Translations under genes and position numbers: made by a program
In this document: positions 18,607 to 25,015 of the stretch, piece by piece
Numbering within the stretch: the stretch's first letter is position 1
Layout: every line of letters starts with the position of its first letter
Notes under the pieces: model-generated
What the model was told of the DNA's origin: nothing
The model's input: only the letters and a program-made list of their open reading frames with translations
The model's database searches: none
Source of the DNA: Chitinophaga sp. LS1
GTDB lineage: Bacteria > Bacteroidota > Bacteroidia > Chitinophagales > Chitinophagaceae
Reading direction: 5' to 3'
Length of the DNA stretch: 64,000 bases
Assembly (NCBI RefSeq): GCF_034274695.1
Contig: NZ_CP128362.1
Span: 4,652,501-4,716,500, forward strand

Positions 18607-19209
18607 ATGAAAAAACTGACTGCGGAATTTTACAACCGGCCTGAGGTATTGACGATAGCAAAGGAGCTACTGGGAAAGATCATAGTAACCCGGTTTGATG
18701 GGGTCCTGACGACCGCGCGGATTGTGGAGACGGAGGCATATAGGGGAGTGGTAGACAAGGCGAGTCATGCTTATGGTGGGCGTCGTACCCAACGTACAGA
18801 GGTAATGTTTGGGGCGGCGGGCAAGGCGTATGTATATCTGTGTTATGGGATCCACTTCTTATTTAATATAGTGACGAATGAGGCGGAGATTCCGGAGGCG
18901 GTGTTGATCAGAGGGGCGGAGCCGCTGGAGGGCATCCCGGAAATGTTGAAACGAACAGGGAAGGCGAAGGCCGATTTTACACTGACAAGGGGGCCCGGGA
19001 ATGTGAGTAAGGCTTTGGGGATTGATAAAATACATACGGGATATAATTTGTTCTCGAAGGATTTTTATCTGGCGGAGGATGGGTATGTGCCTGAGAAGGT
19101 GGTAGCGACGCCCCGCATAGGAGTGGATTATGCGGGGGCGGATGCGTTGCTGCCGTATAGGTTTATAGTGGAGGGGAATAGGTATGTGAGTGGGAAAAGG
19201 ATTGTCTGA
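18607..19209 (+). CDS. mpg: DNA-3-methyladenine glycosylase (AAG/MPG family)
   Basis: The ATG at 18607 gives 200 residues starting MKKLTAEFYNRPEVLTIAKELLGK, the normal start for this family; a frame extending to 18493 adds an unrelated hydrophobic stretch. Visible motifs are RIVETEAYRG (base-flipping pocket with the catalytic Glu), SHAYGGRRTQRTEVMFG, AYVYLCYGIHFLFNIV and the C-terminal RIGVDYAG. The enzyme excises alkylated purines in base excision repair. It is intact and monocistronic, and divergent from the acyltransferase. Confidence 0.92.
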   Translation: MKKLTAEFYNRPEVLTIAKELLGKIIVTRFDGVLTTARIVETEAYRGVVDKASHAYGGRRTQRTEVMFGAAGKAYVYLCYGIHFLFNIVTNEAEIPEAVLIRGAEPLEGIPEMLKRTGKAKADFTLTRGPGNVSKALGIDKIHTGYNLFSKDFYLAEDGYVPEKVVATPRIGVDYAGADALLPYRFIVEGNRYVSGKRIV

Positions 19210-19303
19210 GATTCATTGATTTTAAGTATTGAAGAGGGAGGCCGGTAGCCTTTAGGTAAAAGCCCTGCACTTATTCGGTATTGAAAGTAAATCCTGTTGA
19301 TGC

Positions 19304-19545
19304 CTAATAGCCCTTTTCATTGAGCAATTTTTCAATAAATGCACTATACTCATCCCGCATTGGCAGTATATCATTCACGACCAATGTCCTTCTCTGCACA
19401 GTCATCTGTTGTCCTGTCAGATAAAGGAATGCTGCAAAATAACAACCTTCACACCAATACATAAGATACCGTTTTGCAGACGTGCCAAATAGCAGATTGC
19501 TATGGCTTTACCTTCTACGATAGTATGATCACTACTGAGGCTTTG
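19304..19545 (-). pseudogene. Decayed gene fragment, family unknown
   Basis: On the minus strand a frame ending at the TAG at 19304 reads plausibly as a C-terminus (KRYLMYWCEGCYFAAFLYL, then LLNEKGY). Just upstream a second frame reads DHTIVEGKAIAICYLARL. Neither has a start, and joining them needs a frameshift near 19500. I do not recognise the family. It borders the A+T-rich toxin-like island, so a broken accessory gene is likely. The remaining intergenic sequence to 19739 shows nothing else. Confidence 0.35.
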
Positions 19546-19739
19546 GAAAGCAACTATAATCTGCTTTATTCAGAAGAATTAAATTATACGGACGGGTTAT
19601 TGATGGAAAATTAACGGTAAAAATCCCTTTAAATAGATAAACCATTACTAATTTACAATTGCAAAATTTATTTATTATAGATATTGGTAAATTTAGTATT
19701 TTTAAGTGATTTTCACATACCCATTGATTTAAGACGCCC

Positions 19740-21094
19740 ATGAAACTACTAGTTGGAATAAGACACATACTCATCTTCTCTGCTTTTTTGATAAAATCAC
19801 TATTTTGCTTTTCTCAAATTTCTACCCCTAAATTTCAATCTTTCGAGCCGATTGTTACAAACAAATCTACATCTAATAAACTATCTGAAAGCACAAATAA
19901 TCTGATCCAAAATAAAGAGGAGGAAGAAAGGAAAATAGAAAGTAAATATGCCTTATCGCCAAAGATTAATCAAGTAAACGAAGAAAATGTGAAGGCGATG
20001 TATGGTGCGAATTCCGTTGATCCAGACAATAGATCGGATGCGTTAAGTTATTTAATAAAAGCTTTCAACAATTTTTGCAAATAAATCCCGATAGCTTTTC
20101 TATTACCAAGGCAGTATATCTTTCTGAAATGCCATATTACAGTCAATCCTATAGTTATTCTGAATTTGAAAAAGTGATTGAACAAAAAGCACAATTGGTA
20201 AAGTTTATATTAAAGCAGGAAGGATTGAATGAGAAAAGCAACTTAGCGCTCCATTATGCTATACAAAAGTTATTTGGCCAATTGAATAATATTAAGGATC
20301 CTTTGCATAACAAGTATTATACTTTAGATAAAATCAGGTATGACTTTGAAGACCCAATGGGAGAAAATGATTGGACAAAAATGTTTGTCACCAAATTACT
20401 ATTAACTAACAAGGGGCAATGTCATTCTTTACCATTATTATATTTATGCATTTCAGAACATTTAGGAGCGAAGGCATATCTCTCGCTATCTCCTAATCAT
20501 TCCTTTATACAATTCTTTGATGAATCTGGCAAACGATATAATTATGAAACAACTAATGCCCATCTTGTTTCAACCTCTTGGCTAATGCAATCAACATATG
20601 TGAACTCTACTGCTTATAAAAACAAAACCTATCTTGATACACTCTCAAGTAGAAAATTATATGCGCAATGTTTAGCTGATTTGCTTTTATGTTACCAGGA
20701 GAAATTGAAGGTAAATTACGATAGCTTCTCTCAACTGCTGATAAATAAGATTTTGAAAGAGGATTCGGTAAATCTAACAGCACTAATGGTACGTGCTAAT
20801 TATTATATTACCACATTTGAAAAATTAGCTTGCTCAAAAGGATACCCTTCAATTAAGGACTTTTATAAGTTTCCTGACTTACAATTAGCTTATAATAATG
20901 CCAAAGTAACGCAACAGGCAATTACAGTAACAGGGTTTCAGGAAATGCCTCCTGAAGCCTACAATAAGTGGCAGGAATCTTTAAAAGATGAAAAAACAAA
21001 GGAACATGAGAAATATGAACAAGAAAAAATGAATATAGAAATTAAAAAACTTCAGATGGTTCAGAATAGTTTAACCAACAAGCCTCAAAAATAA
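19740..21094 (+). pseudogene. Transglutaminase-like secreted protein, frameshifted at a T-run (paralogue of 22808-23797)
   Basis: Frame 1 starts at the ATG at 19740 with a signal peptide (LFCFSQ) and ends at a TAA after YLIKAFNNFCK near 20084. Frame 2 continues from about 20075 (LQINPDSFSITKA) to 21094 for 339 residues without its own ATG. One extra T in the TTTTT run near 20070 would join them as ...FNNFLQINPDSF. The second part holds GQCHSLPLLY and LSLSPNHSFIQFF with RYNYETTNAH, a Cys-His-(Asp/Asn) layout as in transglutaminase/cysteine-protease folds, shared with the 22808 protein. It ends in a charged coiled-coil-like tail. It could be a true pseudogene, a phase-variable gene or an assembly error. 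Confidence 0.65.
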
Positions 21095-21118
21095 ATTTTC
21101 ACTTTTCAATAAATAAAG

Positions 21119-22285
21119 ATGCATAACCTAAGGCCTTTGAATTTAATTTTCATTCTCCTACTTTTATTTTCTATATCATCAATTGCTCAAAATAAAAATC
21201 CATATAAAAAGATTGGTAAGAAAGCAAGTATTGTAACCTTGACAAGTGGTAAGTATAAGGAATTATTTGATGAAGACAGTATCCAAAAGATCGGTACCGC
21301 ATTAATAAATATCAATACAATGCAGGTCGTCCATTTAATGGATGAAAATACCGAGATCCGAAGGAGACCGGATAATTCTACTAGCAGTAGGTTTTTAAGT
21401 ACAGATCCTCTTACAGGGAGTTTTTCAATGTTAAGCCCGTATCAATATGCAAGTAATAGACCCATTGATGGTATTGATCTTGATGGTATGGAATATGTAA
21501 CCTATACCTATGTTTTCAACTTAGATAAAAGAAACTATAACCCTGAATTAGGAAACCTTGCGAGCGCCAGCTATGTATGGTATAATGCCAATCAACATAA
21601 TGCCCATGGCAGTTTAGGGCAAGGTGTTCAATATATTATGAAATATCAGGTTGAAGGCAAAGAAGTTGGGCAGAATGCATATTTTGTTGCGAGGAATGCA
21701 AGTGCATTAGGAATAAGTACTGAATATGGCAACTATATGGGTGCTACCGCTCTTTTTAATCCAAATACTGATGGATTGGGCAGTAGTAGTATATATAATT
21801 ATGATTTGCCAGCAGTCGATCAGGTAGATTTTTTGGCGCAGCAACATGATCTGGGATATGATAGAATAGGTGCTGTTGGACAAAGTTCCTTATTTGGTGA
21901 TTGGGGGACAACTCCTATAGATGAAGCAGCGTTAAATGGGTGGAATGATTTCAGAGATAAATATAAAACCGGAAGTAGTGATCCTTATAATGGTCAGGCT
22001 GTTACTACTAGTGAAAGAAAAGCGGCATGGAGAGGTGCAACACTGTTCAGCGATGTAGTAGCTAATAAAAAGGTGAACATATCCTACTGGATGTTGAAAA
22101 ATTATTCAAGTGAAGCCCGTACTACAAAAAATGGATCTTTTTTAAAACCTGATACTCAATACAACTACAACCTATTTTTAAAGAAATATATGGAAAAAGA
22201 TAAAGATGGAAATTGGACCAGGAAAGCCGGAATGTGGAACGAAGATAAAGATCATAACTTTACACCTAAAGCACCATCTGAATAA
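21119..22285 (+). CDS. Minimal RHS-core secreted protein with phospholipase A2-like C-terminal domain (putative effector/toxin)
   Basis: The 388-residue protein has a signal peptide ending SSIAQ (about 24), a short linker region (LTSGKYKELFDED..., about 41-88), then the RHS repeat-associated core end motif at about 90-124 (RFLSTDPLTGSFSMLSPYQY, then SNRPIDGIDLDG). There are no YD repeats before it. After the core, where RHS proteins carry their variable toxic tip, there is VDFLAQQHDLGYDRIG (His243-Asp244, Tyr247, Asp248) and later PIDEAALNGW (Asp268), the HDxxYD + D layout of PLA2-like enzymes. I infer a phospholipase-type effector. The lipoprotein 9 bases downstream is the candidate immunity protein. 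Codons are A/T-rich compared with flanking genes. Confidence 0.65.
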   Translation: MHNLRPLNLIFILLLLFSISSIAQNKNPYKKIGKKASIVTLTSGKYKELFDEDSIQKIGTALININTMQVVHLMDENTEIRRRPDNSTSSRFLSTDPLTGSFSMLSPYQYASNRPIDGIDLDGMEYVTYTYVFNLDKRNYNPELGNLASASYVWYNANQHNAHGSLGQGVQYIMKYQVEGKEVGQNAYFVARNASALGISTEYGNYMGATALFNPNTDGLGSSSIYNYDLPAVDQVDFLAQQHDLGYDRIGAVGQSSLFGDWGTTPIDEAALNGWNDFRDKYKTGSSDPYNGQAVTTSERKAAWRGATLFSDVVANKKVNISYWMLKNYSSEARTTKNGSFLKPDTQYNYNLFLKKYMEKDKDGNWTRKAGMWNEDKDHNFTPKAPSE

Positions 22286-22293
22286 ATAATAGC

Positions 22294-22818
22294 ATGAAAG
22301 CAATTTACGGAACGGGCATACCAATTGTTATATTGGTAATATTTTTTTTCGCTTGCAATAATTTATACAAGGCGGGTAGTAGGGTTCCTCTTATGGATTT
22401 AAAAATCACTACTAATGTAAATGATAGATTAATCTATAGCTATCTGGATAGTATCAATAGCAAAATTGATACATCTAAAGGGTATCCCTTTGTAGTTAAT
22501 GGAGGTGATTTGCAATACTTCCCAGACATAAATAAAATAGCTTACTTTGTTGATAGTCCATTTGAAGCATACCACCTTTCTTCGAACGGGCTGTTTAAGC
22601 TTGCTGAGGTGTATAATCCAAATAAATCCATGAATTGGATAACAAAAGGAGAAAATTTAACCAAAGAAGATTATAATAGAATCGAAAGAAGGATTAATTC
22701 TTTGCTTAAAGGAGTAGTTAAAAATGCCAAAGATAAAAATGTTCCAGATACAGTTGTTTTTTGGGAAAAGCCCTATGACACGGTGATTTGTAAATTAGAA
22801 ACGCCTTATGATCAGTAA
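22294..22818 (+). CDS. Lipoprotein, unknown family (candidate immunity partner)
   Basis: A 174-residue protein with a hydrophobic N-terminus and a lipobox-like FFFAC at about residue 21. The mature part is lysine- and asparagine-rich without a recognised domain. It lies 9 bases after the RHS-core gene and overlaps the start of the following transglutaminase-like gene by 11 bases, so the three are probably co-transcribed. A periplasmic lipoprotein next to a secreted phospholipase-like protein fits an immunity role, but only position supports this. Confidence 0.6.
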   Translation: MKAIYGTGIPIVILVIFFFACNNLYKAGSRVPLMDLKITTNVNDRLIYSYLDSINSKIDTSKGYPFVVNGGDLQYFPDINKIAYFVDSPFEAYHLSSNGLFKLAEVYNPNKSMNWITKGENLTKEDYNRIERRINSLLKGVVKNAKDKNVPDTVVFWEKPYDTVICKLETPYDQ

Positions 22819-23797
22819 GAAACAACTCATTTTAATTTTATATACCTCAGTATTTAATACTTTTTTTTGTGCTTATGCTCAAACGAATAATAATACATCA
22901 ATCCGAAAAAACTATGAACAATCATATGACCTGCTAGATTCTTGCCTTAAGAATAATTCTTCTTTTAAGGATGCTGTATTTATTGCAGAAAATTGCTACA
23001 AAGCCAATAGGTATAGCAAACAGATATTTCAGGGTTTTATTACTGAATACGCGGTACTTTGCAAACTGAATATAGATAATATTACTGATGAAAATAATAA
23101 AGTCGATTCGTTCAATTTTATTGGGAATTATGCAATTTTCAAGTTATTATGTGACACCTCTATATTCATCAATAAATCTGATTCTATTTCTACATTACAT
23201 CTCCCATTCAAATATGATGAGGATGACCCTTCTGCTAAGCATGCATGGAGCAATATGTTTGTGTTCAAACTCTTATTAACTCATACAGGGAATTGCCACA
23301 GTCTTGTCTATCTATATAAGATTCTAGCTGATGAATTGCATGTCAAATGTTGGCTTTCCTTAGCTCCTAATCATATTTATATTCGTAATTACAGCGAAAA
23401 AAGTGGTTGGTACAATACCGAATTAACAAGTGGTACTTTCCCTACTGATGCCTGGATAATGACTACAACAAATACGCCATCAGAAGCTGTTCGTAATGGT
23501 CTTTATATGGATACTCTCAGTAATCAACAGTCCATTGCATTATGTGTTCTAGACCTAGCCAAAGGCTATGAATTTCAAACACACAATTATACTGACGGAT
23601 TCATATTAAAATGTTGCGATCTAGTACTCAAATACCATTCTATTAATCCAATGGCACTATTACTTAAAGCAGAATCACTAAAGAAATTATACCTCAAACA
23701 GCATAAATTACAACTACAAGAAGCAGCTATTACTTATTCAAAGATGTCGAATACTTACATAACATTAGCAAAAATGGGATATCGTGAAATCTTTTAA
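22808..23797 (+). CDS. Transglutaminase-like secreted protein (intact paralogue)
   Basis: This 329-residue protein starts with a signal peptide (FFCAYAQ, about 25). Residues 145-205 hold the part shared with the 19740-21094 gene: W..MFV.KLLLT..G.CHSL..LY, then LSLAPNHIYIR, then WYNTELTSG. Candidate catalytic residues are Cys163 and His189, with Asn203 or Glu205 as third member; this order fits a transglutaminase-like cysteine fold, though the similarity is too low to be certain. The C-terminal third is helical (TPR-like spacing). Having two paralogues around one RHS-core gene suggests they act on, or protect against, the same partner. Confidence 0.6.
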   Translation: MISKKQLILILYTSVFNTFFCAYAQTNNNTSIRKNYEQSYDLLDSCLKNNSSFKDAVFIAENCYKANRYSKQIFQGFITEYAVLCKLNIDNITDENNKVDSFNFIGNYAIFKLLCDTSIFINKSDSISTLHLPFKYDEDDPSAKHAWSNMFVFKLLLTHTGNCHSLVYLYKILADELHVKCWLSLAPNHIYIRNYSEKSGWYNTELTSGTFPTDAWIMTTTNTPSEAVRNGLYMDTLSNQQSIALCVLDLAKGYEFQTHNYTDGFILKCCDLVLKYHSINPMALLLKAESLKKLYLKQHKLQLQEAAITYSKMSNTYITLAKMGYREIF

Positions 23798-24073: not shown

Positions 24074-24550
24074 TTATACGGCATGGGTGTCAGCCTTGAT
24101 TAATTTATTTTTAAAATATTCATATACCTGCAGCATCGAAATTATTTTTTGACCAGTTACTAATGTTTTTTTCCAGGGATTATTTACATCATTATGAAAA
24201 GCCTTAATGATAATATTATCTCCGATATGCCCATAAGTATTCCATACCCGGTCAAGTAAGTGCTGGTCTTCTTTGGAAATAGCCTGATTACCCTGTGGAT
24301 TAGGCAGTTTTTTGTAATAAGATCTTCTTCTGGAGACAATCATATTTTCCCATAATGAAGCAAATGTAGCGCAGCTGATATGGCAAATCAACGGTTCTTT
24401 GATTAAGGTTGATCTACCTTCTGAAAAAGCAAGATACCAGCCATATGAGAAATAGGTAAGACCAACAAGTTGGTTGACATTAATAGGTACATATTCTGAT
24501 GCATACGTGGTAATAAAATAATTGGCAATTGTAGTTGGATTATAGGCCAT
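24074..24550 (-). CDS. Panacea-domain (DUF4065/SocA-like) protein
   Basis: The 158-residue protein starts MAYNPTTIANYFITTYASEY and shows the Panacea pattern: NVNQLVGLTYFSYGWYLAF near the N-terminus, a middle basic patch (SRRRSYYKKLPNPQG), DRVWNTYGHIGDNIIIKAFH and a closing PW in NNPWKKT. Panacea proteins are antitoxins for many unrelated toxins and also occur as phage-linked regulators (GepA, SocA). No partner toxin gene is visible on either side: upstream is a minisatellite and downstream are eroded remnants. The array of 47-bp repeats runs to one base before its ATG, so its leader is made of repeats. Confidence 0.75.
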   Translation of the reverse strand: MAYNPTTIANYFITTYASEYVPINVNQLVGLTYFSYGWYLAFSEGRSTLIKEPLICHISCATFASLWENMIVSRRRSYYKKLPNPQGNQAISKEDQHLLDRVWNTYGHIGDNIIIKAFHNDVNNPWKKTLVTGQKIISMLQVYEYFKNKLIKADTHAV

Positions 24551-25015
24551 GGTCTTTTAATAATTTAGTCTTTTAATAAAATGGTCTTTAATGAAATATT
24601 CTTTTACCTACTGGTCTTTCAATTATTCAATCTTTTAATGAAACAGTCTTTCCCCTCCCGGTCTTTCAATTATCTAGTCCTTTAATGAAACAGTCCTTTC
24701 CCTCCCGGTCTTTCAATTATCTAGTCCTTTAATGAAACAGTCCTTTCCCTCCCGGTCTTTCAATTATCTAGTCCTTTAATGAAACAGTCCTTTCCCTCCC
24801 GGTCTTTCAATTATCTAGTCCTTTAATGAAACAGTCTTTCCCCTCCCGGTCTTTCAATTATCTAGTCCTTTAATGAAACAGTCCTTTCCCTCCCGGTCTT
24901 TCAATTATCTAGTCCTTTAATGAAACAGTCCTTTCCCCTCCCGGTCTTTCAATTATCTAGTCCTTTAATGAAACAGTCCTTTCCCCTCCCGGTCTTTTAT
25001 TCCCCCTTCCAATGA
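24551..25015 (-). repeat. 47-bp minisatellite, about nine copies, abutting the Panacea start codon
   Basis: Units of 47 bp (48 in the last copies) start at 24614, 24661, 24708, 24755, 24802, 24849, 24896 and 24944, with a degenerate one near 24992 and an expanded one at 24551-24613. Each reads GTCTTTCAATTATCTAGTCC, then TTTAATGAAACAGTCC, then TTTCCCTCCCG. Central copies are almost identical, so expansion is recent. The copy nearest the Panacea gene contains an inner ATTAAAAGAC duplication and stops one base before its ATG. It also fills most of the 613-base gap before the M2 peptidase; the last 150 bases of that gap are pyrimidine-rich. Confidence 0.9.

Follow-up and report, generated by a model that had tools for sequence, protein, structure and literature searches.

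Four closely spaced genes at 19740..23797 of a 64,000-nucleotide stretch of DNA from Chitinophaga sp. LS1 (contig NZ_CP128362.1, positions 4,652,501 to 4,716,500; hereafter the window) are probably one copy of a Bacteroidota-wide polymorphic antibacterial toxin system, in which two transglutaminase-like proteins, A and B, stand in for the cocoon of an RHS toxin. The toxin itself, R, is a short protein built from a signal peptide (assigned by eye), a module of about 60 residues (the N-module), the last half of an RHS core and a C-terminal tip; in the window it is followed by a lipoprotein gene. Evidence for this reading comes from the constancy with which A, B and R occur together. A scan of bacterial genomes with an alignment of 28 A proteins plus the B of the window (alignment A2, which holds no R) found 165 relatives, and the best 80 loci were fetched. 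Wherever 3.5 kb or more of sequence lies beyond A, B and R both follow it on its strand (66 of 66 loci). Of the 80 fetched loci, 78 hold R and 76 hold B; in each of the six incomplete ones the contig breaks off within 1.4 kb of A. Among the 74 loci that hold all three genes, 46 read A-B-R and 28 read A-R-B, and R starts a median of 8 bases after B or 28 bases after A (72 loci; L086 and L093 left out). Chitinophaga, Flavobacterium, Aquimarina, Cytophagales and Bacteroidales are among the hosts. Such constancy far exceeds what chance would give, and the recurrence of the neighbours in other genomes, on which the sequence-only reading of this DNA had staked its proposal, is borne out. No fourth conserved gene was found in these loci: the next family after A, B and R occurs in only 8 of the 80.

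Does the association also hold when the search starts from R? In 296 genomes sampled across the phylum, a profile of the N-module plus the core end matches in 80, nearly always by the core end only among the matches listed. A/B proteins are present in seven of the 296 genomes, and the R N-module in at least six, all six beside A/B (Fisher p 8e-12, uncorrected for kinship); these modules were counted down to about E 2e-10 with up to 15 candidates scored per genome, and weak R modules may be missing. In the seventh A/B genome, RHS-core matches flank A/B on both sides. Because of this reverse test, A and B can be said to go with the short R and not with RHS proteins in general. As to mobile carriers, five plasmid records matched, all of them rhizobial and only in part (no more than 31% of the query); no phage record did. 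Two further arrangements were seen among the loci. A second R gene lies behind the first in seven of them (L039, L057, L059, L060, L061, L069 and L072), like a spare toxin cassette, and in a Dysgonomonas locus (L090, 4414-12137) a transglutaminase-like open reading frame (ORF) of 575 amino acids adjoins an RHS-core ORF of 1772 amino acids, besides an ordinary A and a short R.

R of the window (21119..22285, + strand) is 388 amino acids long. Its signal peptide covers residues 1-23 (21119..21187), with a boundary drawn by eye and a helix at residues 7-20 in the structural model, and the constant N-module follows at about residues 24-85 (21188..21373), delimited from alignments A1, A4 and A5. 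The RHS core end occupies residues 86-127 (21374..21499). Here the NCBIfam model Rhs_assc_core aligns its positions 39-76 of 76 with residues 86-124 (E 3.6e-5; 24.2 bits, cut-off 32.5), so that only the last half of the core is represented. No Pfam family matches the protein at E≤1, and the N-module belongs to no family by Pfam or NCBIfam. The same picture holds across the relatives. Rhs_assc_core is present in 82 of 85 R proteins (E≤0.01), and no RHS or YD repeat family is among the 15 Pfam families found for the 85 at the same threshold. The proteins are 205-402 amino acids long, and 15 relatives in the alignment share this short build, at 87-29% identity. A signal peptide and an RHS core end motif without a YD-repeat shell had been read from the letters of the window, and that description holds. 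The two aspartates of the RHS autoprotease type are also kept, as judged from sequence: D96 in 85 of 85 proteins and D120 in 83 of 85, spaced by 24 residues in 82 of 85. In the AlphaFold2 model of R most of residues 18-123 is poor and the tip is mostly confident, with 10-residue blocks from residue 151 on scoring 72-98, mostly above 80.

The tips behind this constant part are highly diverse. The 84 complete R proteins carry tips of 83-280 amino acids that fall into 52 clusters (linked by BLAST at E≤1e-4, a threshold at which distant relatives may be split); the tip counts exclude 7 of the 91 ORFs with an N-module, in which the core end is missing. Among the 37 pairs whose constant regions are at least 80% identical, the tips belong to different clusters in 32. 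Known families, of toxins or hydrolases, account for a minority of the tips of 85 R proteins: Peptidase_M91 in eight, Toxin-JAB1 in six and, once each, TseH, Tox-GHH, Ntox17, Ntox21, Tox-REase-7 and the cell-wall family Hydrolase_2. Most R tips have no known family. By sequence, R combines a constant N-terminal part with an exchangeable C-terminal toxin, which is the make-up of a polymorphic toxin.

What does the tip of the window do? It spans residues 128-388 (21500..22282), and tips of this kind are borne by the 15 short relatives and also by ordinary RHS proteins. In a 27-row alignment (A1), G204, Y206, G208, D234, D237, H243, D244, Y247, D261 and D268 are invariant, so the HDxxYD plus Asp layout proposed earlier is real, with H243, D244, Y247 and D268 unchanged in every row. 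A calcium-loop Tyr-x-Gly (Y206-x-G208 here), an HD pair, a tyrosine and a second aspartate are what we take to be the residues of a calcium-dependent phospholipase A2 (PLA2). The family PF08398 (Phospholip_A2_4) matches 7 of the 27 members of the tip alignment at E≤1, with a best E of 0.0028; two of these matches, scored singly, reach 17.1 and 15.4 bits under a cut-off of 23.9. Identification as a PLA2 by sequence alone was tried and given up: the sole PDB match of the single R protein was a DARPin (E 0.075). The tip profile found one PDB match, the PLA2 chain 1ae7, over the HD motif at E 0.79. The top Foldseek rows for the tip model are unrelated proteins and not significant; in a structural second look at the model, a rice PLA2 ranks best. 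By prediction, then, the tip looks like a phospholipase A2.

The lipoprotein gene (22294..22818, + strand) directly follows R, and its product is probably the immunity protein for the PLA2-like tip. Its N-terminus is lipobox-like by eye, and its two nearest relatives pass a crude rule for exported proteins. The search for relatives found only four proteins, that of the window included. One homologue (28% identity over 152 aligned positions, E 1e-14) stands behind the same PLA2-like tip in P0028, where Chitinophaga sp. Hz27 carries that tip on an ordinary RHS ORF. In that strain the RHS part with the PLA2 tip and the lipoprotein lie within one protein record of 572 amino acids. Does the gene behind R generally look like an antidote? 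By the same rule, a home-made call of signal peptides and lipoboxes that over-calls (background 131/298), 65 of the 84 R genes are followed by a gene with a lipobox or a signal or transmembrane start and 15 by one that looks unexported; for four no next gene was found. Genes after other ORFs of the same loci look exported in 79 of 292 cases (p 1e-16), and the difference remains when only cases with a next ORF are counted (65/80 vs 79/190, p 1e-9).

The export of the next gene also follows the type of the tip. All four genes next to nuclease-type tips look unexported; Tox-GHH and Tox-REase-7 were placed in this class from their Pfam descriptions, and Ntox17 and Ntox21 are presumably nuclease-type as well. 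Behind the 11 JAB1 and M91 tips identified individually (three further M91 tips lie outside this tally), the next gene looks exported in nine; it does not in L062, where the start of the next ORF looks truncated, and no ORF was found in L088, near a contig end. The contrast is 0/4 for nuclease-type tips against 9/10 for JAB1/M91 (p 0.005); the location of the presumed antidote and the likely site of action of its toxin thus tend to coincide. This pattern, predicted from N-termini, fits immunity proteins, and the suggestion that the lipoprotein is an immunity partner fits its position, the export pattern and the linkage of tip and lipoprotein in P0028.

A and B belong to the transglutaminase-like superfamily, as both the Cys-His-acid triad and the predicted fold indicate. 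PF13369 (Transglut_core2) matches 27 of the 29 members of alignment A2 at E≤1 (best 3.8e-7). A of the window is split into two overlapping ORFs in different frames, both on the + strand: an N-terminal piece of 114 amino acids with the signal peptide and a linker (19740..20084), which matches the first part of the intact relative P0118, and a main piece of 339 amino acids with C116, H142 and E158 (ORF numbering) and a helical C-terminal part (20075..21094). The main piece scores under the PF13369 cut-off (15.2 vs 23.5 bits). P0118, a single protein of 451 amino acids, covers both pieces and is 99% identical over the query. B (22808..23797, + strand; 329 amino acids, signal peptide by eye, intact C-H-E triad) is matched by no Pfam family at E≤1; it aligns with the A family and is 30% identical to A. 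Every A ORF (81) and every B ORF (75) of 300 amino acids or more in the fetched loci carries the C-H-E motif, a tally that leaves out 7 shorter ORFs of 163. By the crude rule, 89 of 91 R proteins look exported, as do 60 of 77 A and 67 of 75 B proteins long enough to judge.

The fold predicted for A, from a model of P0118, comes nearest to menin: menin takes the top 39 of 50 rows, and the best non-menin rows include transglutaminase and PNGase structures. TM-scores against menin in Foldseek are low (0.30 for 3re2). Is A a menin? The menin profile PF05053 has no match at E≤10 in the genome of the window and two weak matches (E 0.015 and 0.067), neither over the cut-off, in nine relatives. As the sequence profile does not match, A is not classed as a menin.

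How would a toxin work without its shell? R would be exported by Sec; its constant part consists of the roughly 60-residue module and the autoprotease half of the RHS core. The exchangeable tip would be the toxin; that of the window, being PLA2-like, would cut phospholipids of a rival's envelope, and the lipoprotein would guard the producer's own. With the cocoon gone, R needs another holder or guide, and no constant candidates other than A and B were found. Exported and with intact Cys-His-Glu triads, they would replace the missing cocoon, most likely by binding the constant part of R, and would hold, process or covalently attach it before release. The antibacterial use, the roles of A and B and the exit route are what we infer here. 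An earlier proposal from the letters alone, a shell-less secreted lipid-attacking effector with a lipoprotein immunity partner and two accessory cysteine-type proteins, is supported, and what was found reaches further than that proposal.

And by which route would R leave the cell? The question was addressed in 29 genomes that hold the system, seven of them the A/B-positive members of the phylum sample and 22 hand-picked behind the fetched loci, hence not a random set. VipB, the sheath marker of the type VI secretion system (T6SS), is found in two of the 29, although a strongly divergent sheath could be missed, and the T6SS was set aside as a general route. SprA of the type IX secretion system (T9SS) is present in 29 of 29; it is also present in 229 of the 296 sampled genomes and, being so common in the phylum, says little about the T9SS, which is still a possible route. 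No T9SS C-terminal sorting domain is among the four NCBIfam families found for the 85 R proteins (E≤0.01), a scan that for A and B covered the window's own proteins.

The roles of A and B can be read in other ways. They might be thiol proteases that cut R, removing the constant part and freeing the tip much as the RHS aspartyl autoprotease does, only from outside. Intact C-H-E motifs suit such a role, R, A and B all usually look exported by the crude rule, and PMC3482391 describes papain-like peptidases with a releasing role in polymorphic toxins. However, both autoprotease-type aspartates are kept in R, which makes a second protease less needed, two different proteins are always kept, and no cleavage site is known; we regard this reading as possible, with the odds somewhat against it. 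Alternatively, A and B could be true transglutaminases that bond R covalently to a carrier or to a protein of the surface, with the toxin displayed on the cell and not packed in a cocoon. The match to Transglut_core2 in 27 of 29 members speaks for this, as does a triad that is intact, unlike that of the inactive transglutaminase domains fused to RHS toxins, which are possible anchors (PMC3482391). Neither a substrate nor a conserved acceptor is known for such a reaction. Many members of the transglutaminase-like superfamily are not transglutaminases at all, and for these reasons we find the idea doubtful.

In another reading A and B have no enzyme activity: as menin-like clamps they would take hold of a short peptide where mature R begins, and would serve as a chaperone or export adaptor. 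A pure scaffold would not need a catalytic motif, yet the motif is invariant; together with the silent menin profile and the TM-score of 0.30 to 3re2, this makes the clamp unlikely, about on a par with cross-linking. A bolder variant keeps the catalysis: A and B would form a menin-shaped clamp that seizes the start of mature R between a transglutaminase-like domain and a helical-repeat palm and that processes or attaches R so that it can be delivered, and the eukaryotic menin fold would have descended from such a partner. Teneurins reportedly derive from bacterial toxins (PMC13018210), which offers a parallel for such a descent, and we consider this variant improbable. Finally, the cassette might not be a weapon at all: a degraded RHS fragment and unrelated neighbours could be kept or spread by mobile DNA. 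A is frameshifted in the window, both other copies in the genome are broken, one of them before transposase-like ORFs, and a family that looks recombinase-like by eye occurs in 8 of the 80 loci. Against this stand A, B and R kept in 66 of 66 flank-complete loci, the invariant catalytic motif and the tight spacing, and we give the idea very little credence. The toxin system with A and B in place of the cocoon is the reading that we prefer.

How well preserved is the system in this genome? The cassette lies in a trough of G+C content (33-35% in the five 2-kb bins starting at 19001-23001; 40-49% in the other bins of the window), with A, R, the lipoprotein and B in this order on the + strand. The A+T-rich block of four close genes that had been described from the sequence therefore stands as to its genes, their order and the trough, and falls short in one respect, since the first gene is not intact. 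A is intact in relatives and frameshifted at this locus; the split may be a true frameshift or an assembly error, and because of it the window copy is possibly impaired. The genome of Chitinophaga sp. LS1 holds three loci in all, the window copy with its split A being one. An in-frame stop splits R in L094 (7674500-7684000), where a lipoprotein and a B-like fragment of 100 amino acids come next; the second R piece looks JAB/DUF4329-like by eye. L095 (6519500-6528000) holds a C-terminal transglutaminase-like piece and a short R, then transposase-like ORFs (by eye). The system may be decaying in this genome, with intact copies elsewhere. Between the cassette and the next gene lies a tandem array (24586-24997) of 8.7 copies of a 47-base unit with 95% matches. 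A SocA-like ORF at 24074-24550 on the - strand was left out of the cassette, its match to PF13274 (SocA/Panacea antitoxin) reaching 22 bits under a cut-off of 25.7.

How does the cassette relate to known systems? Polymorphic toxins, Tox-PLA2 and fused inactive transglutaminase domains (PMC3482391) and RHS autoproteases (PMC8765631) are already described. Searches of an open-access library, judged by titles and the openings of abstracts, brought up no recognised description of an RHS toxin that lacks a cocoon and goes with two constant, catalytically intact transglutaminase-like proteins; subscription papers and preprints lie outside this scope. With Tox-PLA2 (PMC3482391) and PF08398 the window tip shares the HD, Tyr and Asp and the Tyr-x-Gly layout; it differs in sitting on a cocoon-free protein and in PF08398 matches that, scored singly, stay under the cut-off. 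TANFOR toxins of Bacteroidetes (PMC7073777) mostly have a signal peptide, belong to the same phylum, and have variable toxic tips and downstream immunity genes. They are, however, large, with a TANFOR domain and T9SS-substrate neighbours, and the word 'transglutaminase' is absent from the main text of that paper. The toxins described by Zhang et al. 2012 (PMC3482391) bring together a signal peptide, a transglutaminase-type domain and an RHS part. There, as described, the domain lies within the toxin before the RHS repeat array and has lost its catalytic residues, whereas the cassette has two separate intact proteins and no array.

On the side of A and B, the likeness to SirB1/Transglut_core2 consists in the match of the A family to PF13369, and one relative (P0130) is named by its source after the SirB1 N-terminal domain; the cassette proteins differ in being exported, paired and tied to R. 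Menin (PF05053) resembles A in predicted fold, and A differs in having no profile match and in keeping the triad cysteine, which human menin lacks according to PMC10318531, where menin is listed as a solely eukaryotic family. A is a bacterial protein predicted to resemble in shape menin, a human leukaemia drug target.

Akin to R are the RHS toxins, of which RhsA of Pseudomonas protegens is an example (PMC8765631). Its two autoprotease aspartates, D1324 and D1346, are needed for the release of the tip. R shares the core end with the PxxxxD motif and the two aspartates, 22 residues apart in RhsA and 24 in R, as well as the variable C-terminal toxin and an immunity-type gene downstream. It differs in having no YD/RHS repeats or cocoon within its 205-402 amino acids, in its own signal peptide, N-module and A/B partners, and in the rarity of VipB in the genomes that carry it. 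In known RHS toxins the tip is held inside a large cocoon and freed by autoproteolysis; here only the last half of the core is kept, across a phylum. The cassette thus lets one test how much of the RHS machinery is needed and what replaces the shell, and it also offers dozens of toxin tips with neighbouring candidate antidotes.

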